Translations under genes and position numbers: made by a program
Assembly (NCBI GenBank): GCA_022548915.1
Contig: JAKZES010000005.1
Location: forward strand, 62,001 to 126,000
DNA length: 64,000 nucleotides
Origin: Verrucomicrobiaceae bacterium E54
GTDB taxonomy: Bacteria > Verrucomicrobiota > Verrucomicrobiia > Verrucomicrobiales > Akkermansiaceae
Direction of reading: 5' to 3'
Shown: piece after piece, positions 36,052 to 46,554 of the stretch
Numbering within the stretch: the stretch's first letter is position 1
How the letters are laid out: each line of letters starts with the position of its first letter
Notes under the pieces: generated by a model
What the model saw: the letters and a program-made list of their open reading frames with translations, nothing else
What the model was told of the DNA's origin: nothing
The model's database searches: none

Positions 36052-36672
36052 GTGGAAGGCATTCAACGATTCGAAGGCGGCTATCTGCTCACCAATTCCT
36101 ACCTCGCCCCCACCCCGGGCGGGGCGTGGGTGATGATCGACGCGCCGATCGACGCCGACCGCTGGCTGGACGATCTCGGAATCCAGCCGATCGCCCTGCT
36201 TCTGACCCACCAGCATTTCGATCACGTCATGACCGCCGGCGCCATCTCGGCGCGCGGGGTTCCGGTGCATGCCTGGAAACCTTTCGACCGGTCGCTGACG
36301 CTCGAGGAGGTGGTCCGGGAGTGGGGCATGCCTTTCGACGTGGATCCCTACGAGGTGGATCATGTCATCGAAGGCCGGCAATCGCTGGAAATCGACGGCC
36401 TGACCCTCGAGCTGCGTCACACCCCGGGGCACTCGACCGACAGCGTGAGCTTTTACGACCGGGATGCGGCGGCCCTCTTCGCCGGAGACACCCTGTTCGC
36501 CGGATCGACGGGCCGGCCGGATCTGCCGGGAGGCGACATGGCGGTTCTGAGCCGGAGCATCCGCGAGCAGATCTACCCGCTGCCCGACGCCACCCGGGTC
36601 CTCCCCGGCCACGGTCCCGAGACCACGATTGGCACGGAAGCTGCCGAAAACCCGATCGTGCGACGAATCTGA
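36052..36672 (+). CDS. Metallo-beta-lactamase-fold hydrolase (glyoxalase-II-like)
   Basis: 206 aa with the metal motif 'LLTHQHFDH', a later His in 'RHTPGHSTDSV', the bridging Asp in 'FAGDTLFAGS' and a final His in 'VLPGHGPET'. This is the short MBL hydrolase type near hydroxyacylglutathione hydrolase and YcbL; the substrate is not predictable. Start: GTG 36052; a TTG at 36016 is the alternative. It lies 113 bases before the six-gene envelope cassette and is probably separate from it. Confidence 0.88.
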   Translation: MEGIQRFEGGYLLTNSYLAPTPGGAWVMIDAPIDADRWLDDLGIQPIALLLTHQHFDHVMTAGAISARGVPVHAWKPFDRSLTLEEVVREWGMPFDVDPYEVDHVIEGRQSLEIDGLTLELRHTPGHSTDSVSFYDRDAAALFAGDTLFAGSTGRPDLPGGDMAVLSRSIREQIYPLPDATRVLPGHGPETTIGTEAAENPIVRRI

Positions 36673-36785
36673 GAGACAAGGCCGGCTTCCGCCTTCGCTG
36701 CACCCGAGGGGGTTTTGCGCTGGAATTGAGGTTATTCCTCTGGAAGTTTTCGCAAAGCCCCGGGAGTCCCCACCGTTATCCATTC

Positions 36786-39407
36786 ATGCCAGACCCAACC
36801 AAACCGTCGGTCACCCTCCCGGAGTCGCTCCGCGACCAGCTCGCAGAGTTCCGGCGGCGCCTGTGGCGTACCAAGATTGCGGAGGCCGTGCTGGCCGGGA
36901 TCTTCGGTCTGATCTTTTCCTACCTGATCGTCTTCGGTCTCGACCGCATCTGGCAGACGCCCGGGCTGGTCCGGCTCGCCATTCTGCTGAGCGGCACCTC
37001 GCTGGCGGTGGTGTTCGCGCCGATGCTCCTGCATCGCTGGGTCTGGAAGCACCGCCGTGAGAACCAGCTCGCCCGCCTGATCGCCCGCAGGCATCCCGGC
37101 CTTGGCGACCGCCTGCTGGGCGTCATCGAACTGCGCGACCAGACGGAGAATGCCGACAGCCTCTCACCCCGGCTCCGGGCCGCCGCGATCGAGACGGTGG
37201 CCGCGGAGACCGCCCGGCGGAAACTGGACGACTCGCTGCCGGTTTCCCGGCACCGGCGCTGGTCGCTCGCGGTCGTCGCCCTCTTCCTGGTTGCCGGCAC
37301 GGCGCTCACGCTGGTGCCCCAGGCCGGGATGAATTCACTCAAGCGCTGGCTTTTCCCCCTGTCCTCCACCCCGCGCTACACCTTCACCCTGCTGGAAACC
37401 CTGCCGGGAGAACTCCCGGTCGCCCAGGGAGAGGCCTTCACGCTCGAGGTCCGGCTGGACGACGCCAGCGAGTGGACGCCCGGCTCCGGGCTGGCCCGCA
37501 TCGAGCGTCAGGACCCCGTCACCGCCGGCCTGGACGGACGGGTCTATAGTTTCGATTTCCCCGGGCAGCAGGAGCCCGGAAACGTGCGCTTCGAGATCGG
37601 GGATGCCCGCCACTCGATTCGCGTCGTTCCCGCCCTCCGGCCCGTGGTCGACCGCAGCATCGCCGAGGTCGACTATCCCGACTACCTCCAACTCGAGGAC
37701 GAGTCCCTCGACCTGCCGACCGGCACCCTCACCGCCGTGCGCGGATCGGAGGTCCGCCTTGGCATCGAGGTCAGCCGGGCGCTCAAGGAGGCGCGTTTCG
37801 GACCCGTGGCGGCGATGGACCGGGATGAAGCCTCCGACTCGGCTCCGGAGTCCGAGTCCGATCCGCAGCCGATGAACCTGCGCGGACCGATGGCAACCAC
37901 GGACTTGATCGAAATCGCCGAGACTTCTCTGGAGGTTCCGATGATGTGGACGGATTCCCTCGGGCTCGAGGGAAGTCAGGGCTTCAAGCTGCGGATCCAG
38001 GCGGTGCCGGACGAGGCCCCTTCCTGCTACATGGAGGGGGTTCCCAGCCAGCGGGCCCTGCTGCCGAGCCAGACCGTGGACTTCGATGTCGTGGCCAGCG
38101 ACGACTTCGGGATCCGCGGATACGGCCTGGAGTGGGTCGGAGAACCGACGCGCCCCGGTTCCAACGACTCCGCCAAGGGAGAGTTGGTCCTCGAGAAGGG
38201 CCACCCGCGGTTGAAGAGTGCCTCGATACCCGCCGCCTTCTCTCCGGAGACCCACGGGATCGGTCCGCAGAAGCTCACCCTGCGCGCCTACGTCGAGGAC
38301 TACATGCCGGACCGCGGCCGCATCTACTCGCAGCCGGTGATCCTCTACATCCTGAGCGAGGAAGAGCATGCCCAGATGCTGAAGAACCAGTTCGACCGCG
38401 CGATCGGTGAACTGGAGGACCTGACCCGCCGCGAGCGGAGTCTTTTCGAGGAGAACCAGCGCCTTGAAAGGCTCGATGGCGAGGAACTGCGCCAAGGTGA
38501 GCCCGCCGAGCGGCTTGAGCAGCAGGAGGAGTCGGAGCGCCAGCAATCCGAGAAGATGCAGGAACTGACCCGGAAGATGGAGGAGCTGCTCAAGGAGAGC
38601 GCGCGAAACGAGACCATCGACAAGGAGACGCTGCAGAAGATGGCCGAGGCGATGAAGTCGATGCAGGAGCTCGGCGAGCAGGACATGCCCGAGGTGCAGG
38701 AAAACCTCGGCGAGGCCGGCGACCCGAAAAACACCGGCGAGAAGTCCGAGCAGGAAATGAAGGAAGCCGTCGAGAAGCAGCGTGAGCTTCTCGAGAAGAT
38801 GCAGGAAACCATCGAGAAGGCCAACGACGCCAACGAGCGCTTCGAGGCGAGCACCTTTGTGGCACGCCTCAAGAAGGCGGCCTCCGACGAGGAAGGCGTG
38901 GCGAAGGCCTCCCTCGCCCAATCCGAGCACTTCGGACTGCGCCGCGAGCAGATGGATCCGGCGGATCTGACGAAACTTGACGAGACCATCCGCCAGCAGT
39001 CGGAGACCGCATCCGAAGTCCGGTGGATCGAGGAGGATCTCGGGCATTTCTTCACGCGCACCGCGAAGGAGGCCTACGGCGAGATCCTCCAGGAGATGGT
39101 CGAGTCGGAGATCGATCTCGGTCTGGAGGACGTCCGCTCGCGCCTCAGCCGCAACCACGGCTTCATCGCCGCCAAGTCCGCCACCGAGTGGGCGGCCCTG
39201 CTCAAGGAATGGGCCGACAAGCTCGAGGGCGCCGTGAAGGAAGACGGCGGTGGTGGCGGCGGCGGAGGTGGTGGCGGCGGCGAAGACGAGGACTTCGAAT
39301 TCATGCTGCGCGTGATGCGGATGGTCCAGCAGGAGCAGGACCTCCGGGCCCGCACCCGTGCGCTCGAAACCCTGAGGCGATCCTACGAACTCGAGAAGAC
39401 TCCATGA
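36786..39407 (+). CDS. Membrane-anchored coiled-coil protein (DUF4175-like)
   Basis: 873 aa. Two membrane helices at about residues 30-52 and 60-82 and a third at 158-178 leave most of the chain outside the membrane. Residues ~195-290 and 410-520 look like beta-sandwich domains ('VDYPDYLQLEDESLD' is typical of the family). Residues ~530-720 are a Glu/Gln/Lys-rich coiled coil. A run of 12 glycines (821-832) precedes an acidic patch and a terminal helix. It resembles large uncharacterised DUF4175-type proteins of Planctomycetes and Verrucomicrobia. Start: ATG 36786; the frame is open far upstream but overlaps the MBL gene. Stop overlaps the next start (ATGA). Confidence 0.8.
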   Translation: MPDPTKPSVTLPESLRDQLAEFRRRLWRTKIAEAVLAGIFGLIFSYLIVFGLDRIWQTPGLVRLAILLSGTSLAVVFAPMLLHRWVWKHRRENQLARLIARRHPGLGDRLLGVIELRDQTENADSLSPRLRAAAIETVAAETARRKLDDSLPVSRHRRWSLAVVALFLVAGTALTLVPQAGMNSLKRWLFPLSSTPRYTFTLLETLPGELPVAQGEAFTLEVRLDDASEWTPGSGLARIERQDPVTAGLDGRVYSFDFPGQQEPGNVRFEIGDARHSIRVVPALRPVVDRSIAEVDYPDYLQLEDESLDLPTGTLTAVRGSEVRLGIEVSRALKEARFGPVAAMDRDEASDSAPESESDPQPMNLRGPMATTDLIEIAETSLEVPMMWTDSLGLEGSQGFKLRIQAVPDEAPSCYMEGVPSQRALLPSQTVDFDVVASDDFGIRGYGLEWVGEPTRPGSNDSAKGELVLEKGHPRLKSASIPAAFSPETHGIGPQKLTLRAYVEDYMPDRGRIYSQPVILYILSEEEHAQMLKNQFDRAIGELEDLTRRERSLFEENQRLERLDGEELRQGEPAERLEQQEESERQQSEKMQELTRKMEELLKESARNETIDKETLQKMAEAMKSMQELGEQDMPEVQENLGEAGDPKNTGEKSEQEMKEAVEKQRELLEKMQETIEKANDANERFEASTFVARLKKAASDEEGVAKASLAQSEHFGLRREQMDPADLTKLDETIRQQSETASEVRWIEEDLGHFFTRTAKEAYGEILQEMVESEIDLGLEDVRSRLSRNHGFIAAKSATEWAALLKEWADKLEGAVKEDGGGGGGGGGGGGEDEDFEFMLRVMRMVQQEQDLRARTRALETLRRSYELEKTP

Positions 39408-40024
39408 AGAAGATCATTGCCATCCTGCTCGCCCCGCTCCTCGCGTGGTCGGCCGACGATCCCGAACTGGCGGAGAAAATCAGCCGGCACCAGACCGGAT
39501 CCCGCAACCTGTCCGACCGTCAGGACGAGCTCGCCGCGGACGTGCAGCAACTGACGATCGAGCAGACCCACCCCAAGGTCATCGAACTCTTCCGCGAGGT
39601 CGAGGATGCCATGGACGAGGCGAGCGAGCGGCTCTATGAGCACGAAACGGACGGGGTGACGATCGCCGCCCAGACCGAGGTCATCGAGAAAATCTACGAA
39701 GCCGCCAAGGAACGCCAGAAGCAGTCGGGCGGCAGCCCCTCGGAGGGCGCCGGTGGCGCGATGATGGACATGCTCGAGCGGATGATGGGCAAGGAACCCG
39801 GCAGCAAGCCCGGGGAAGGCGAGAAGCCCGGTGACCAGGGCGGCGAGGGCATGACCGGCGAGTCCGACACCGGCAATTCGGATGTTGGCGGAGCCAACGA
39901 AGGCCGCGTCGTCGAGCGACGGGTGCCCAAGGGTGCCGGGCAGGCCGGGAAGGGTTTGCCGGCCGAGTTTGGAGACGCCCTGAAGGCCTACAACCGCGGC
40001 GCCGAGCGCCTGATCGAGAAATGA
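39404..40024 (+). CDS. Small secreted helical protein of unknown function
   Basis: 206 aa. Signal peptide 'MKKIIAILLAPLLAWSA', then a helical region of ~110 residues ('SDRQDELAADVQQLTIEQTH'). A Gly/Glu/Ser-rich low-complexity stretch (about 115-180) and a C-terminal 'FGDALKAYNRGAERLIEK' follow. Overlaps the genes on both sides by 4 bases. No family recognised. The terminal helix resembles ends seen in multi-subunit periplasmic assemblies of this type of operon, so a partner role to the 873-aa protein is likely but inferred. Confidence 0.75.
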   Translation: MKKIIAILLAPLLAWSADDPELAEKISRHQTGSRNLSDRQDELAADVQQLTIEQTHPKVIELFREVEDAMDEASERLYEHETDGVTIAAQTEVIEKIYEAAKERQKQSGGSPSEGAGGAMMDMLERMMGKEPGSKPGEGEKPGDQGGEGMTGESDTGNSDVGGANEGRVVERRVPKGAGQAGKGLPAEFGDALKAYNRGAERLIEK

Positions 40025-41010
40025 CCCGCGTTTTCCTCCACGGCCTGATCGCCATCGGCTTCCTGATCCCGGCGCTGGGACAGGATCTGCGACGACGTCC
40101 GGACGATCCGATTCCGGCCCAACTTGAGACGGTTTACGAACGCGGCTTGGCTTATCTGGCGAAAAGTCAGAACGCCGATGGTGCCTGGAACGACCGGATG
40201 GGGAGCGAACCCGGCGTGGTGGGTCTGGCGGTCATCGCCTTCCTGGCCCACGGCGAGGATCCGAATCACGGCACCTACCGCGAGGTAATCCGCAAGGGCA
40301 TCTCCTACATCCTGTCCCGGCAGCGCGAAAGCAACGGCTACATCGGCACCTCGATGTACAACCATGGATTCGCCACGCTCGCTCTCGCCGAAGCCTACGG
40401 GATCGTGGACGACCCCAAGATCGCCCCCGCCCTGCAGATCGCCGTCGAGCTGATCCTCAATGCCCAGGAGCGGAATCCATCCGGAGCGTGGCGCTACACG
40501 CCCGATGCCCGCGATGCGGACACCACCGTTTCGGGATGCCAACTGGTCGCCCTGCTCGGGGCCCGGAACGCCGGAATCCCCGTGCCCGACGAGGCCATCA
40601 AGAAGGGCCTCGCCTACATGTCGCGCTGCCGCGGCGGCGACGGCGGCTACGGCTACACCTCCGCCGGCGGCAGCAAGCCGACCCTCACCGCCATCGGCGT
40701 GACCTGCCTCGCCCTAGCCAAGGAAAAGGACGGGAAAGGATTCGCCGAAAGCGTGGGCTACCTGCAGAAGAACCTCAACTACCGGGACCGCAACTATCCC
40801 TACTACTTCGAATACTACATGTCGCAGGCCCTGTTCCACGCCGATGAGAACCTGTGGAACGAATGGAACCAGAAGAACCTGCGCTACCTTTCGACCATTC
40901 AGCGCCCGGACGGGTCGTGGCCCGGCAACAAGGGAGAATCCTTCAACACCGCCAGCGCCCTGCTGTCGCTTGCCCTGAACTACCGTTTCCTCCCGATCTA
41001 CGAAAAATGA
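40021..41010 (+). CDS. Alpha/alpha-toroid (prenyltransferase/squalene-cyclase-like repeat) protein
   Basis: 329 aa with a signal peptide ending 'FLIPALGQ'. QW-type repeats are visible: 'GLAYLAKSQNADGAWN', 'GISYILSRQRESNGYIG', 'GLAYMSRCRGGDGGYG', 'YLSTIQRPDGSWPG'. These build an alpha/alpha barrel as in terpene cyclases and the complement C3/alpha-2-macroglobulin thioester domain. No cyclase catalytic D-x-D-D motif is seen, so a binding or structural role outside the cytoplasm is more likely than terpene chemistry. Overlaps both neighbours by 4 bases. Confidence 0.85.
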   Translation: MTRVFLHGLIAIGFLIPALGQDLRRRPDDPIPAQLETVYERGLAYLAKSQNADGAWNDRMGSEPGVVGLAVIAFLAHGEDPNHGTYREVIRKGISYILSRQRESNGYIGTSMYNHGFATLALAEAYGIVDDPKIAPALQIAVELILNAQERNPSGAWRYTPDARDADTTVSGCQLVALLGARNAGIPVPDEAIKKGLAYMSRCRGGDGGYGYTSAGGSKPTLTAIGVTCLALAKEKDGKGFAESVGYLQKNLNYRDRNYPYYFEYYMSQALFHADENLWNEWNQKNLRYLSTIQRPDGSWPGNKGESFNTASALLSLALNYRFLPIYEK

Positions 41011-42572
41011 ACCGACTCATCCCCACCCCAGCCATCCTCCTCGCCGGGCTCATTGCGGCCACCGCGGGCACCGCGGGTGCCGAGGAAACCAGCCCGGATC
41101 TCCTGCGCCTGACCAACGGGGAGCTCGAGGGACGCTTCGGCGGAATCGATCGCGACGGCGTGCTGCGGTGGGAGCGCGACGACGGCGTCGCTCCCATGGA
41201 GTTCCGCACCGACAAGGTCCGGCAGATCATCCTGCGCGGGGCGGCGAGCCTGAGAACCGACAACTCGACCTCCCACATCGAGTTGATGAACGGCGATCGC
41301 ATTCCCGGTGCCATCACCGGCCTCGATGCCGAGAACCTCACGGTCGACAGTCCGGCGGCCGGGCTGTTGGTGATTCCGCGTGACGTGGTCAAGCGGATCG
41401 CCCCCAATCCCTTCGGAGGCCGACTCATCTACGCCGGCCCCTTCGATCCGGATGAGTGGAAGATCGATGACGGCTCCGAGCCCAAGGCCGCGGCCGATCC
41501 GGAGGAAAACGAGGAGGCCGACGAGCAGGAACCACCCGCCCCGGAAGAATCGCAGGAACCGGCGGAGGAAGAAAAGGAGGAGGAGGCGACGTGGCGGCAC
41601 CTCGGCTCCCGTTGGTACCATGTCGCCGGAGGGGACGCGCTGACACTGGATGCCGACATGCCCCGGCGTTCCGTCTTCCGTTTCCATCTCGACTGGCGGG
41701 GACGCTCGCCGGTGGCGGTCGCCTTCCATGCGGATTTCGCTCCGAAGCCGCCGGTGGAGAAGGATGACGAAGAGGGCGGAGCCAACAATGCGAGGCGCGT
41801 CGTCTCGAGCATGAGTGAACTCACCAGCTACTTCGGCCGCGCCCTGGTCATGACCTTGCGTGGCAACTACGTGACGCTCTACAAGAGCGGCTACGGCAAG
41901 GACGGCACACCTTACATCAACACGATTCGAGCCGCGAAACGGAGCCTGCAGATCGACGATTCCGGCTCGGCGGATTTCGAACTGCGCACGGATCTCGACG
42001 AGGGATTCATCTCGCTCTTCGTCAATGGCGAGTTTGCCATGCAGTGGCTCATCGAACCGGTTGAGGGCGATGAGGACGACTCGTGGACCCCCGGCGGCGG
42101 AATCGGCTTCCGTGTCGATGGATCGGAGAATCCCCTGCGGCTTTCCGACATCATCCTCGCCGAGTGGAATGGCATGCCGGATGCCGCCCGCAGTCTCGAG
42201 AGCGAGGAATGGGATGTGGTTCTCCTGACCAACGGAACCGACCGGGTGTCCGGCCGGGTTGAAACCATCCACAACGGGCAGCTCACCCTCGAAGGCCGCT
42301 ACGCTCCATTGGTGATCCCGACCGAGGAGATCGCCGACATCCGCTTCGCGGCCCGGGGCCTGCGCGAGATCGATCCCATCTCCGACGACCGGATCCGCAT
42401 CCATTTCCAGCCCATCGGAATCATCAGCGGCGTGCCCGGGGTGACCGACTCGGACAAGATGGCTCTCAAATCCAAACTCATGGGTGATCTGACGCTTGAT
42501 CTGGAAAGCGCGGTCATCCTCGAATTCCGCGAAGGCGGCAACTTTCTCGACGCATGGGGCGACGACTATTGA
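41007..42572 (+). CDS. NGD-repeat/jelly-roll exported protein, paralogue 1
   Basis: 521 aa with signal peptide ('LLAGLIAATAGTAGA'). Two ~45-aa repeats of the type L-x-N-G-(D/E)-x4-G at about 30-75 and 92-138, an acidic Glu/Pro linker (~155-195), and a beta-rich region ('WRHLGSRWYHVAGGDALTLD') resembling the jelly roll of DUF1080/LamG-like domains. Two further repeats follow ('VVLLTNGTDRVSGRVETI', 'IHFQPIGIISGV'). The repeats recall the motif preceding many DUF481 outer-membrane proteins. The start overlaps the toroid gene (ATGA); the end overlaps paralogue 2 by 19 bases. Function unknown. Confidence 0.75.
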   Translation: MNRLIPTPAILLAGLIAATAGTAGAEETSPDLLRLTNGELEGRFGGIDRDGVLRWERDDGVAPMEFRTDKVRQIILRGAASLRTDNSTSHIELMNGDRIPGAITGLDAENLTVDSPAAGLLVIPRDVVKRIAPNPFGGRLIYAGPFDPDEWKIDDGSEPKAAADPEENEEADEQEPPAPEESQEPAEEEKEEEATWRHLGSRWYHVAGGDALTLDADMPRRSVFRFHLDWRGRSPVAVAFHADFAPKPPVEKDDEEGGANNARRVVSSMSELTSYFGRALVMTLRGNYVTLYKSGYGKDGTPYINTIRAAKRSLQIDDSGSADFELRTDLDEGFISLFVNGEFAMQWLIEPVEGDEDDSWTPGGGIGFRVDGSENPLRLSDIILAEWNGMPDAARSLESEEWDVVLLTNGTDRVSGRVETIHNGQLTLEGRYAPLVIPTEEIADIRFAARGLREIDPISDDRIRIHFQPIGIISGVPGVTDSDKMALKSKLMGDLTLDLESAVILEFREGGNFLDAWGDDY

Positions 42573-43888
42573 TCATCGCCACCCTCGGGGTGGCAGCCGG
42601 CATCGGACACGGCGACGAACTGAAGCTCACCGATGGCGGACGCCTGACCGGAACCGTGGTCTCGATGAAGGCCGACGGTTCGCTGACCATCGAGGCCGAT
42701 GTCGCGCTCGATGCCATCGAGGTCAGGCCCGGGCGCATCCGGCGGGTGGACTTCTCCAACGAGGCTCCCGCGCCACTCGATCATGATGCCCGGGTGCAGC
42801 TCATCAACGGAGACATGGTCCCCTGTGACCTGCTTTCGATCGGTGACAAGGAGATTGCCGTGCGGACCGCTTTCGCCGGGGATCTGTCGATCGCCCGCGA
42901 TGTCATCGACCGGATGCAACTCGGGATCCGTCCCCACCGGGTGATTCTCTCCGGGTTGGGCGACGAGGCCGGCTGGCTCACGCCTTCCGACCAATGGTCG
43001 ATCCAAGACGACCAACTCGTTTCCTCCGGTACCGGCTTCGTCGGCCGGGCCTTCGACGAACTCCCGCCCGCGTTCTCGCTTTCCTTCGACCTGAAATGGG
43101 AGCAGCGCCCCGCCTTCAAGGTCTTCTTCTGCTCGGATCCCGGCAAGGGCTCGGGCGGCGAACTCGACCGCTACTACCTCCAGTTCAACACCGCCGGGTT
43201 CGAACTCAAGCGACAGAGCACCGGCAAGACGTCCTATCATCCGCTGGGTGTCGTGAACCGCGGCCCCGAGGACTTCAGGGAGCGCGAGGTCAGCATCGAA
43301 CTGCGGGTCGATCGTCCGGCCAGGATGCTCTACCTCTATCTCGACGGCGAACTCGAGGGTCGTTTTCCGGATCAACTCGACGAGATGCCCGAAGCCAGCG
43401 GCATTGTCTTCGAGAGCGGGACCAAGGGAGAGCGCGCGCACGTCGTCTCCAATCTGGAACTGCGCCAGTGGAACGCCTCGGGCGACCGGCACAAGGGGGA
43501 AGACCGCGGCGACGAGAAGGCGGACGCGGTGATCGACCACGACGGCCAGCGCTTCGGAGGCAAGCTGCTCGAAACCGCGGTTCGCGATGGCCGGCCCGTG
43601 GTCCTGTTCCAGAGCCCCCACCTGGCGAATGCCCTGGAGATCCCGGTGAACCGCATCTCCACGATCTTCCTCGCCGGAAACAAGGCCGAGTCGAAAGGCT
43701 CGCCGCTGTTCTTCGGGCTCGCCGCCGGGGGGCGCCTGAGCGCCGCCAGCGGGCGCTTTGATGATCGGACCCTCTTCCTCGAGCATGAACTTCTTGGCCC
43801 GCTCGAGATCCAGCGCCCGGCCGTGACCTCCCTTGACCGCAGGGAGTTGGCAGAGGAACCGTCGACCGATTCTCCGGACGAACCATGA
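42554..43888 (+). CDS. NGD-repeat/jelly-roll exported protein, paralogue 2
   Basis: 444 aa, same layout as its neighbours: a short signal peptide ('LLIIATLGVAAGIGHG'), repeats 'ELKLTDGGRLTGTVVSMKA' and 'VQLINGDMVPCDLLSIGDKE', and a central beta-rich region with 'DQWSIQDDQLVSSGTGFVG' and 'YYLQFNTAGFELKRQ'. Two more divergent repeats end the chain ('IDHDGQRFGGKLLE', 'GRLSAASGRFDDRTLFLE'). The central region resembles DUF1080 lectin-like folds. The ATG at 42554 is inside paralogue 1, and the stop overlaps paralogue 3 (ATGA). Predicted periplasmic; ligand unknown. Confidence 0.75.
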   Translation: MGRRLLIIATLGVAAGIGHGDELKLTDGGRLTGTVVSMKADGSLTIEADVALDAIEVRPGRIRRVDFSNEAPAPLDHDARVQLINGDMVPCDLLSIGDKEIAVRTAFAGDLSIARDVIDRMQLGIRPHRVILSGLGDEAGWLTPSDQWSIQDDQLVSSGTGFVGRAFDELPPAFSLSFDLKWEQRPAFKVFFCSDPGKGSGGELDRYYLQFNTAGFELKRQSTGKTSYHPLGVVNRGPEDFREREVSIELRVDRPARMLYLYLDGELEGRFPDQLDEMPEASGIVFESGTKGERAHVVSNLELRQWNASGDRHKGEDRGDEKADAVIDHDGQRFGGKLLETAVRDGRPVVLFQSPHLANALEIPVNRISTIFLAGNKAESKGSPLFFGLAAGGRLSAASGRFDDRTLFLEHELLGPLEIQRPAVTSLDRRELAEEPSTDSPDEP

Positions 43889-45291
43889 ACCTTCCCGTTT
43901 CAGCGCTCCTCGCCGCACTCATCCTCGTCGCCCCGGCGCGCGGGAAGGATGGGGACATGACCCTGCTGTTCACCAACGGAGACCTCGTCCGCGGCGATCT
44001 CGCCGCCTTCGATGAGTCCGGGCTTGTTTGGGAGTCCGACGCATTCACGGCCCCCCAGCGTTTCCGGGTCGACCCGGTGAGCCGCATCGAAGTCCCGCCA
44101 TCTCCCGGTTTCAATCTTCCCGAGGGCAACCACATTGCCGAAGTCACCTTGACCAACGGGGACAAGCTGCGCGGGTGCCTCACCGAGGTCACCGACGACA
44201 AGATCGGCCTGCAGACCAGCTACGCCGGAGAGCTGATTCTGCGCCGCGACATGGTCGACGCCCTGAAGATCGAAAGCCGTCCGGAAGTGATCTACCTCGG
44301 ACCGTCCGAACTCGGGACATGGACGCAATCGATCAAAGATGGCTGGTCGCTCGAGGACAATGCCCTGGTGTGCAAGCGCGGTTCGAGCATCGGTCGCGAG
44401 ATCGGTCGTCACGACCGCATCCGCTTTGCTTTCGATGTCTCGTGGCAGGAGAACGCGCGGTTCCGGCTGTTCCTCCACGCCGACAGTGAGAACCCGGACG
44501 ACATGAAGAATGGCTACGAGCTGGTGTGCCAGAGCCAGTACGCCTACCTTCGCAAGAAGACCGCGAACGACTCGTCGACCATCGGAAGCTCGGGAGGCAT
44601 CCGCGAGTTCACGGAACGGGACAAGATCCGTTTCGAGATCCTCCAAGACCTGACCACCGGGCGATTCCGGCTGATGATCGACGGCCGGATCATCGACGAC
44701 TGGCAGGAAGCGGCACCGGACCCGGCAAAGATGGGATCCTTCATTCATTTCTTGGCCGACCATTCGAACGGCACACGCATTTCTCGGATTGCGATCACCA
44801 GCTGGGACGGCGTGGTGGATGGCGAGTGGGGACAGGACCGACGAAATTTCGGCGGACGGATGTTTCAGTTCCAAAACATGGATGAACCCGAGCCGGACGA
44901 ATCCGAAGCCTCCGGGCCGGACGAATCCCAGGGCATCAAGCTGCGGAATGGCGACCTCGTCGATGGCGAGATCGTCGAGATCGCCGACGGAATGGTGCGA
45001 CTGAAGACGAGCTTCAATGAGTTCGAGCTTCCGGTGTCGAGGCTCCGGAGCTTTGCCCTGCGAACCGCCGAGGAGGCCGCCAATCCGGAACTCCGGTGGG
45101 AGCCGATCCGCCGCAAAGGCGACATCCGGGCTTCCTTCACCGACGGCGGCCGCCTGACCTTCCAGTTGGTCGGCTTCGAGGACGGGCATCTGATCGGCCG
45201 TTCACAGACCTTCGGTGAGGCAAGGTTCGACCTCGGCGTGTTCTCCAGCCTCGAGTTCAACATCTACCCGCGCGGGCTCCCGGAGGGTTGA
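43885..45291 (+). CDS. NGD-repeat/jelly-roll exported protein, paralogue 3
   Basis: 468 aa, the clearest member: signal peptide 'LPVSALLAALILVAPARG', repeats 'MTLLFTNGDLVRGDLAAFDE' and 'VTLTNGDKLRGCLTEVTDD', and a central domain 'DGWSLEDNALVCKRGSSIG' to 'NGTRISRIAITSWDGV'. Repeats 'IKLRNGDLVDGEIVEIADG' and 'FTDGGRLTFQLVGFEDG' close the chain. The first two repeats share 'TSYAGELILRRDMV', comparable to 'TAFAGDLSIARDVI' in paralogue 2, confirming common descent. Last gene of the cassette; the cyclophilin gene begins 41 bases later. Confidence 0.76.
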   Translation: MNLPVSALLAALILVAPARGKDGDMTLLFTNGDLVRGDLAAFDESGLVWESDAFTAPQRFRVDPVSRIEVPPSPGFNLPEGNHIAEVTLTNGDKLRGCLTEVTDDKIGLQTSYAGELILRRDMVDALKIESRPEVIYLGPSELGTWTQSIKDGWSLEDNALVCKRGSSIGREIGRHDRIRFAFDVSWQENARFRLFLHADSENPDDMKNGYELVCQSQYAYLRKKTANDSSTIGSSGGIREFTERDKIRFEILQDLTTGRFRLMIDGRIIDDWQEAAPDPAKMGSFIHFLADHSNGTRISRIAITSWDGVVDGEWGQDRRNFGGRMFQFQNMDEPEPDESEASGPDESQGIKLRNGDLVDGEIVEIADGMVRLKTSFNEFELPVSRLRSFALRTAEEAANPELRWEPIRRKGDIRASFTDGGRLTFQLVGFEDGHLIGRSQTFGEARFDLGVFSSLEFNIYPRGLPEG

Positions 45292-45332
45292 ATCGGTTTG
45301 CCATCGGTAGCTCCCTGCCGGAGCCTCTGGGC

Positions 45333-45875
45333 ATGGCCGACATCAAGATCACCATCCATACCGACAAGGGCGACATTGACGCGACCCTCTTCGCCGACAA
45401 GGCACCGCTGACCTGCGCGAACTTCATCAACCTCGCCCAGCGCGGATACTACGACGGCATCGCCTTTCACCGCGTCGTCGATGGCTTCATGATCCAGGGT
45501 GGCGATCCGACCGGAACCGGACGTGGTGGCCCGGGCTACAAGTTTGCCGATGAGTTTCATCCCGAGCTGCGCCACGCGAAACCCGGAATCTTCTCGATGG
45601 CCAATGCCGGTCCGGGAACCAATGGCTCCCAGTTCTTCGTCACCATGGTGCCCACTCCATTCCTGGACAACCGTCACTCCGTCTTCGGCGAAGTGACCTC
45701 GGGTCAGGACGTGGTAAATAGCATCGTCGGCAAGGTCGATACCGGCGAGCAGGGCTGCAAGGCGGATGGCAAGGGCGATGCGATCACCCGCATCACCATT
45801 CACGATGACGCCAGTGCGCTCCTCGAGTCGCGAAAGGACGACGTCGAACACTGGAACTCGATTCTCGACCGCTGA
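45333..45875 (+). CDS. Peptidyl-prolyl isomerase (cyclophilin type)
   Basis: 180 aa, single cyclophilin domain. Visible motifs: 'FHRVVDGFMIQGGDPTGTG', 'MANAGPGTNGSQFFVT', 'FLDNRHSVFGEV', which contain the active-site Arg, Phe, Gln and Trp/His-region residues. No signal peptide, so cytoplasmic. Start: ATG 45333, where similarity begins; an in-frame start at 45288 lies in the end of the preceding gene. A ~25-residue C-terminal extension ('LLESRKDDVEHWNSILDR') is unusual for the short class. Transcribed with, or just after, the cassette. Confidence 0.93.
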   Translation: MADIKITIHTDKGDIDATLFADKAPLTCANFINLAQRGYYDGIAFHRVVDGFMIQGGDPTGTGRGGPGYKFADEFHPELRHAKPGIFSMANAGPGTNGSQFFVTMVPTPFLDNRHSVFGEVTSGQDVVNSIVGKVDTGEQGCKADGKGDAITRITIHDDASALLESRKDDVEHWNSILDR

Positions 45876-45914
45876 GTCTTTTGATGGTTGCTTAAGAGAC
45901 TTGAAGCATCTCAG

Positions 45915-45948
45915 GCCCTCTCGTGCTGCGGCGCGTAAGGGCTTTTTT
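45915..45948 (+). terminator. Probable intrinsic terminator
   Basis: An outer stem GCCCT/AGGGC, with possible inner CG and GC pairs around a TGCG loop, is followed by six T. 40 bases after the cyclophilin stop. Confidence 0.65.
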
Positions 45949-46116
45949 GTGCATGTTTTGCATCAATAGGTGACAAAGTTGACCGGATTCCCTCCCCTTC
46001 ATCCCTCCGTGATCGCGTGGGAACCGTCAAGACGGGTTGATTTTCCACGCCATCAGGATTTCAATCCCTCCCGTCGGCCGCACCCACGGACGACAATCAC
46101 CCCATCCCCCTACAAG

Positions 46117-46554
46117 ATGAAACTCCCCCGCTCCCCCCGCGGTGGTGCCTTGATGGCCGCCACCCTTTTTGCCCTCGTGGCACCCTTCTCCGCCTCGGCT
46201 TCCGAGCACGCATCGGTCTCGACCGGAATCCGCACGTCCTCGACGGACATCTCCACCTACGCCCAGATCCTCCACGACGGGACCAACTGGACGATGATCC
46301 CCCGCGGCGCGGTCCTCCACCTTTCCGACAAGCACCGCGACAAGCTCGGCGAGCGCCCGGTCGGCAATCTGGTGTCCTGGCCGGAGTTCCTGTCGATCAA
46401 TCGCTCGTGGCTCGCCACCGAGGAGGTCACCCTGCGACAGGCGGAAGGCACCCGCGCGATCGACCCGCGGCGCCTGAGTTACTTTTCCAAGCAGAAGCGC
46501 ATGGTGGTCGCGGTCTATCAGGAATCGCCGATCGCCGTCGTGTTCATTCGCTGA
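46117..46554 (+). CDS. Small secreted protein of unknown function
   Basis: 145 aa from ATG 46117. Signal peptide 'GGALMAATLFALVAPFSASA', then a compact domain with 'YAQILHDGTNWTMIPRGAVL' and 'WPEFLSINRSWLATEEVTL'. The end 'MVVAVYQESPIAVVFIR' is a beta strand pair. Not recognised. The frame is open to 45970, but that part is low-complexity and would bury the signal peptide. Alone between a terminator and a convergent gene. Confidence 0.65.
   Translation: MKLPRSPRGGALMAATLFALVAPFSASASEHASVSTGIRTSSTDISTYAQILHDGTNWTMIPRGAVLHLSDKHRDKLGERPVGNLVSWPEFLSINRSWLATEEVTLRQAEGTRAIDPRRLSYFSKQKRMVVAVYQESPIAVVFIR

Follow-up and report, generated by a model that had tools for sequence, protein, structure and literature searches.

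Six adjacent genes in a stretch of Verrucomicrobiaceae bacterium E54 (GenBank assembly GCA_022548915.1, contig JAKZES010000005.1, positions 62,001 to 126,000; 64,000 nucleotides, here called the window) probably form the membrane and periplasmic half of a phylum-wide operon, MoxR-DUF58-BatA-VWA-g1(+g2)-g3 followed by one or more lectin-like proteins, which would be part of a MoxR-driven machine for envelope maintenance. In the window's family, the Akkermansiaceae, and in some of its neighbours, this operon appears to have been broken into two unlinked loci. The six genes, named g1 to g6, lie on the + strand at 36786-45291. Their coordinates give successive overlaps of 4, 4, 4, 19 and 4 bases, as described in an earlier report on this DNA made from the sequence alone (the initial annotation). 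Numbers with the letters G, C, L and f are our labels for genomes, contigs, loci and families.

36786..39407, + strand: g1, 873 amino acids (aa); predicted inner-membrane protein
39404..40024, + strand: g2, 206 aa; putatively secreted helical protein, the split-off C-terminal domain of an ancestral g1
40021..41010, + strand: g3, 329 aa; putatively secreted alpha/alpha-toroid, squalene cyclase-like fold without DxDD
41007..42572, + strand: g4, 521 aa; putatively secreted paralogue of g6
42554..43888, + strand: g5, 444 aa; putatively secreted paralogue of g6, possible start at 42569
43885..45291, + strand: g6, 468 aa; putatively secreted, with a predicted ConA/galectin-type jelly roll

The connection to MoxR is often seen in relatives, both in other families of the window's taxonomic order and further out in the phylum. 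In tblastn searches of loci outside the order, restricted to those with enough flanking DNA (at least 2.5 kb upstream for VWA), g1 has a VWA homologue no more than 2 kb upstream in 22 of 31 eligible loci; gene g3 follows g1 within 1.5 kb downstream in 24 of 32, and 20 of 26 have a lectin-type gene at most 2 kb from gene g3. Labels from gene calls and phmmer place MoxR, DUF58, BatA, VWA, g1 and g3 all together in 15 of 34 loci outside the order, a set that includes cut-off and badly called ones. Three loci without a g1 gene call (L157, L176, L181) enter only these neighbour counts (tblastn and labels). At L052, Pfam identifies AAA_3 (truncated by the contig), DUF58 (E=8.4e-45) and BatA (E=1.8e-13), with VWA families below cut-off. 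The VWA protein beside g1 homologues has 730 aa, and an alignment of 16 such proteins from relatives (A4, without the copy from E54) has invariant D84, S88, T145 and D169 with the consensus DxSxS; we take these positions to be the metal ion-dependent adhesion site (MIDAS).

In the window, MoxR, DUF58, BatA and VWA genes do not adjoin the six genes. The cassette is on contig C211, and a MoxR half is found on C244 of the same genome, where Pfam identifies AAA_3 (E=3.3e-62), DUF58 (E=1.3e-48) and BatA (E=4.5e-14), followed by a full-length VWA match (G000:C244:119549-121744, 898 bits with the A4 profile). Since the upstream neighbours of the six genes are of MBL-fold and SNF2 type and the MoxR half is at C244, we file the six genes as a partner module and not as a Bat operon. 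The initial annotation had treated the cassette as a machine of its own; a reading in which it stands alone, with no energy source, is not supported, as relatives often carry it as the 3′ half of a MoxR/DUF58/BatA/VWA operon. The genome of E54 also has two further MoxR-DUF58-BatA-VWA-g1′-g3′ clusters made of distant paralogues, L062 (by Pfam) and L207 (by labels only), on contigs C22 and C55. A search for BatB-E (TPR/BatD) at E≤0.05 among 8 proteins of L052 and 9 of L062 returned none, and divergent members could escape such a sequence search.

Within the order, the tblastn neighbour set comprised 15 loci, including L051 from the window's own family and without L059; VWA precedes g1 in 5 of the 14 eligible ones. 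The halves are 216 kb (G010) and 759 kb (G074) apart in single-contig relatives; in G154 and G002, if their chromosomes are circular, the distances come to about 418 kb and at least 1.27 Mb, respectively. On a midpoint-rooted tree of 78 g1 proteins (849 shared columns), the linked state sits on both sides of the root, which fits an old linked operon that was repeatedly unlinked. The 14 changes counted on this tree are an overcount, as the linked state was taken from the gene calls of the fetched stretch and cut-off loci were scored unlinked.

The six genes are a real and conserved unit. A g1 match of at least 286 bits is present in 46 of 57 relatives, and g1 is found at E≤1e-30 in 42 of 240 genomes sampled across the phylum. 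Our gene-order set has 80 named loci, 55 of them with more than 6.5 kb of DNA 3′ of g1, and the order g1-g2-g3-g4-g5-g6 is present in 45 of these 55; whether it is kept in relatives was the check proposed in the initial annotation. In G026 gene g3 is on a different contig from g1-g2, so there the operon is split further.

The two halves are also present or absent together. With presence cut-offs of at least 286 bits for g1 and at least 600 bits for VWA, the 57 relatives divide into 45 with both, 10 with neither, one with g1 only (G011) and one with VWA only (G001); these last two genomes are 72% and 90% complete, respectively. Two genomes (G048, G055) were scored as lacking g1 despite g1 matches at E≤1e-3. 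Gene g3 agrees with g1 in 57 of 57 relatives at a cut of 420 bits; in G046 it is truncated by a contig end at 301 bits, and paralogues reach 378. We added 19 further genomes of the genus coded g3 (not to be confused with gene g3), which with G019, already among the 57, make 20; 12 have both halves and 8 neither. Within the genus coded g25, G044 has both and G050 lacks both. The combined 76 genomes comprise 57 with both, 17 with neither and one of each discordant type (Fisher p=8e-15, uncorrected for kinship).

Such agreement in 74 of 76 genomes, with incomplete genomes as the only exceptions, argues against the alternative that the six genes are a self-contained periplasmic machine, independent of MoxR and VWA, whose operon link is merely historical. 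That alternative, which we judge unlikely, would agree with the distances between the halves in the window's family and with the fact that no shared upstream element was seen; moreover, in none of the loci that keep the cassette order is the MoxR half beside the cassette in gene calls.

The overlaps within the cassette exceed chance: neighbouring genes overlap in 2 of the 26 other same-strand pairs of the window (31 pairs in all) and in 43 of 364 unrelated same-strand pairs in related loci. They are not strictly conserved among relatives. Starts that would produce an overlap of 4 or 1 bp exist at 44 of 68 called g1/g2 junctions, 26 of 57 for g2/g3, 47 of 53 for g3/g4, 2 of 48 for g4/g5 and 36 of 49 for g5/g6. 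In the window, the alternative TTG start of g5 at 42569 would reduce its overlap with g4 from 19 bases to 4. Upstream of the cassette there is one further feature:

36718..36749, + strand: conserved element CGCTGGM-N13-YYCTGSRASTTT, upstream of g1; possible promoter or operator

The same block, read by eye, stands 5′ of g1 in most genus-level loci, and the element has a single exact copy in its own genome. No sigma-70-type promoter was found in 36400-46200.

By hydropathy g1 has three hydrophobic stretches. A structure model (mean predicted local distance difference test score, pLDDT, 85.7; predicted template modelling score 0.60) suggests hydrophobic helices, immunoglobulin (Ig)-like periplasmic domains at about 200-522 and long helices at 525-870. 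Matches to the Ig-like fold are weak (best Z 9.1 at a root-mean-square deviation, rmsd, of 18.7), and the best match in a PDB sequence search has E=0.01. Where the initial annotation proposed a membrane-anchored coiled coil, the model of the C-terminal part has several long helices after Ig-like domains and not one simple coiled coil. An assignment of g1 to DUF4175 (PF13779) was dropped, the score being 13.7 bits against a curated cut-off of 27.3; that family was matched in 2 of 23 g1 members at E≤0.1 (best 5.9e-4). The DUF4175 paper, in the part consulted, concerns Acinetobacter AdvA (PMC7481262), which we do not use as a relative of g1. For g2-g6, N-termini resembling signal peptides are recognised by eye; the hydropathy cut-off flagged g3, g4 and g6 but not g2 and g5, and the idea that all members have membrane helices or signal peptides holds to that extent.

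The profile built from 27 g2 proteins recognises the C-terminus in 46 of 47 unsplit g1 proteins, and 0 of 31 split ones match it (L032 was scored as split by hand, the gene caller having missed g2 there). At the exception, L060, the g2 part is a separate called open reading frame. Apart from 2 of the 47, the match does not cover at least the first 17 profile positions, the signal-peptide region. The initial annotation supposed g2 to be an independent subunit; it is the C-terminal piece of g1, split off and now equipped with its own putative signal peptide. Two changes are required on the g1 tree to explain the split state: either two fissions, or a single fission ahead of the Akkermansiaceae and their neighbour family f6 together with one re-fusion. 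The fused genes at L191 and L192 are probably such a re-fusion.

The alpha/alpha-toroid call for g3 is borne out by a Pfam match to PF13243 (E=2.9e-11, 43.4 bits against a cut-off of 26.1), and a g3 profile searched against the PDB matches lanosterol synthase (E=1.6e-9). The motif DxDD, which we take to be the catalytic motif of squalene-hopene cyclase, occurs in 0 of 24 aligned g3 members. W157-R158-Y159, P161 and D167 are invariant, and the members have a conserved C-terminal LP(I/V)Y end.

The last three genes are tandem paralogues, as the initial annotation had it (BLASTP E=5e-17 for g6 and g5, E=7e-12 for g6 and g4). In the AlphaFold model of g6 (mean pLDDT 88.0), residues 133-310 are predicted to form a jelly roll, aligned by VIA-align to 1oq1_A over 173 residues (Z 17.3, rmsd 2.6), with four flanking small beta units that are Sm/SH3-like by strand pattern alone. 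To judge from the modelled fold, g6 may bind sugar. A PDB sequence search with g4-g6 gave nothing significant (Hfq/Lsm at E about 0.4, nanobodies at about 0.2), and 3keto-disac_hyd was matched in 1 of 33 proteins of this type (E 0.0047). Clostridial neurotoxin binding domains in the Foldseek list (query template modelling score about 0.24-0.29) are chains that bear a jelly roll, and nothing points to a toxin. In Pfam and NCBIfam no family exceeded its cut-off for g1, g2, g4, g5 or g6.

Lectin-type genes vary in number. Among the 34 loci outside the order, cut-off and badly called ones included, 15 have none labelled, 9 have one, 9 have two and one has three. In sister families f2-f4 about two lectin units are fused per chain, mostly with a thioredoxin-like CxxC end (CxxC in 10 of 12 proteins). 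Together, the variable number and the fusions speak against the fixed six-part stoichiometry that the proposed translational coupling had suggested. A two-unit fused lectin protein with a CxxC end replaces g4-g6 at L046, L047, L049, L052-L054, L057, L058, L060 and L061; that of L052 has a C-terminal thioredoxin-like domain by Pfam.

These folds could also belong to a glycan-binding or glycan-processing module serving a surface polymer, with lectin-like g4-g6, g3 as an unrecognised enzyme, and MoxR only maturing one member. We find this decidedly improbable. The g6 jelly roll does resemble ConA-like lectins and CBM66, and the cyclase-type fold of g3 keeps its invariant residues; however, apart from that fold no catalytic family scored above cut-off, which agrees with the initial annotation's failure to recognise a catalytic site, and lectin folds are also used in protein contacts.

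According to excerpts of published work, MoxR proteins are chaperone-like ATPases that mature specific complexes (PMC3893208), VWA proteins assist in directing MoxR to what it acts on (PMC11834572), and in Rhizobium a MoxR operon has been connected with the shape of the cell and the integrity of its envelope (cited in PMC5700661 and PMC3893208). From these roles we infer that g1-g6 supply a membrane anchor and periplasmic effectors. In such a scheme the cytoplasmic MoxR ATPase would act at the inner membrane on the VWA proteins, namely DUF58, BatA and the one of 730 aa. The g1 protein would cross the membrane and carry a periplasmic stalk and helical region, where g2 and the toroid g3 would bind. 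The secreted lectin-fold proteins g4-g6 would be the outward, glycan-contacting parts, and all parts would jointly assemble or repair an envelope component. The scheme presumes a single complex, coupled to ATP, that binds glycans and maintains the envelope. More tentatively, and with rather more doubt than belief, the two loci could encode one trans-envelope machine in which MoxR ATP hydrolysis is relayed through VWA and g1 to lectin-fold effectors that remodel or proofread glycans, with a thiol-redox arm in the sister families.

It is very improbable that the co-occurrence reflects shared ancestry alone, old phylum genes having vanished from reduced genomes without any functional connection between the halves: several genomes without both halves are small (1.1-1.6 Mb; G020, G021, G033), but the joint absence spans several genus codes and includes large genomes (5.8-6.3 Mb, G041, G045 and G048; 5.9 Mb, G050) that keep weaker, paralogous VWA matches.

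Several observations weigh against the cassette being the periplasmic half of a MoxR-driven envelope operon. The 2 kb upstream of g1 hold no VWA match in 9 of the 14 eligible loci of the order (L051 included) or in 9 of the 31 outside it (at L173 the distance is 2.1 kb), and 15 of the 34 outside loci have nothing labelled as a lectin-type gene. The 10 of the 55 loci without the full order are 6 with g1-g2 and no adjoining g3-g6 (L087, L101, L105, L106, L108, L111), 3 with g1-g2-g3-g5-g6 and 1 with g1-g2-g3-g4. The pattern is uneven in other respects: g1 and g2 are fused at L191 and L192, inside the split clade, and in G363 no more than about 16 kb separates the two halves. The ‘VWA’ protein of E54 is given no VWA domain by Pfam at E≤0.01 and matches MG2, GATase1_like and Big_1 only weakly, and PF00092 is found in just 5 of the 16 A4 members. 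The genome has 10 MoxR-type genes (AAA_3 matches), so the choice of MoxR partner is unproven. Inspection by eye did not show the conserved g1 element 5′ of the MoxR half, which leaves co-regulation of the halves unsupported. The Fisher test of co-occurrence ignores shared ancestry. Finally, an excerpt on Leptospira biflexa reports bat mutants with wild-type morphology and growth (PMC3557215).

Around the cassette, an MBL-fold hydrolase gene at 36052-36672 ends 113 bases 5′ of g1; further out, on the opposite strand, comes a gene for an SNF2-type helicase. The hydrolase is called beside g1 in 11 of 25 loci (L021-L045), mostly within the genus. On the other side, a cyclophilin peptidyl-prolyl isomerase gene at 45333-45875 starts 42 bases 3′ of g6; in the same 25 loci it is called beside g6 only in the two nearest relatives, L021 and L022.

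Operons of the MoxR-Bat type are widespread, and an excerpt of PMC3557215 calls the function of Bat elusive. The cassette suggests partners of this poorly understood stress system outside the cell membrane. Conserved periplasmic partners, a split operon with co-travelling halves and a gene fission yield testable statements on binding partners. The initial annotation had proposed an undescribed system. Our literature searches (titles and openings of abstracts) found no description of the verrucomicrobial gene set, and to that extent the partners are new; the system to which they would belong is MoxR-Bat-like.

Four known systems offer comparisons. ConA-like lectins, galectin, CBM66 and ERGIC-53-type domains resemble the g6 jelly roll with Z 14.8-17.3 among the 50 matches listed, at identities of 6-17% in those same matches, and differ from g6 in that its jelly roll is flanked by beta units. 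Squalene-hopene and lanosterol cyclases share with g3 a cyclase-type toroid by sequence profile, whereas g3 is about half their size, has an N-terminus like a signal peptide, is without DxDD in 24 of 24 members and scores far under the NCBIfam cyclase cut-offs. The Bat (Bacteroides aerotolerance)/MoxR operon of Bacteroides, Riemerella, Leptospira and Borrelia is like the relatives, and like the MoxR half in E54, in having MoxR, DUF58, BatA and VWA in one row; excerpts of PMC11834572, PMC3557215 and PMC5700661 also share the membrane and periplasmic emphasis and the stress-linked proposals. It differs in that the verrucomicrobial row goes on with g1/g2, a cyclase-fold toroid and lectin-fold proteins, which we did not meet in the excerpts of Bat descriptions consulted, and in that the window's family has its operon in two parts. 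Rhizobium leguminosarum RL3499-RL3502 (cmdA-D) is likewise a conserved MoxR-type operon, whose mutants, in excerpts of PMC5700661 and PMC3893208, have cell-shape and envelope defects.

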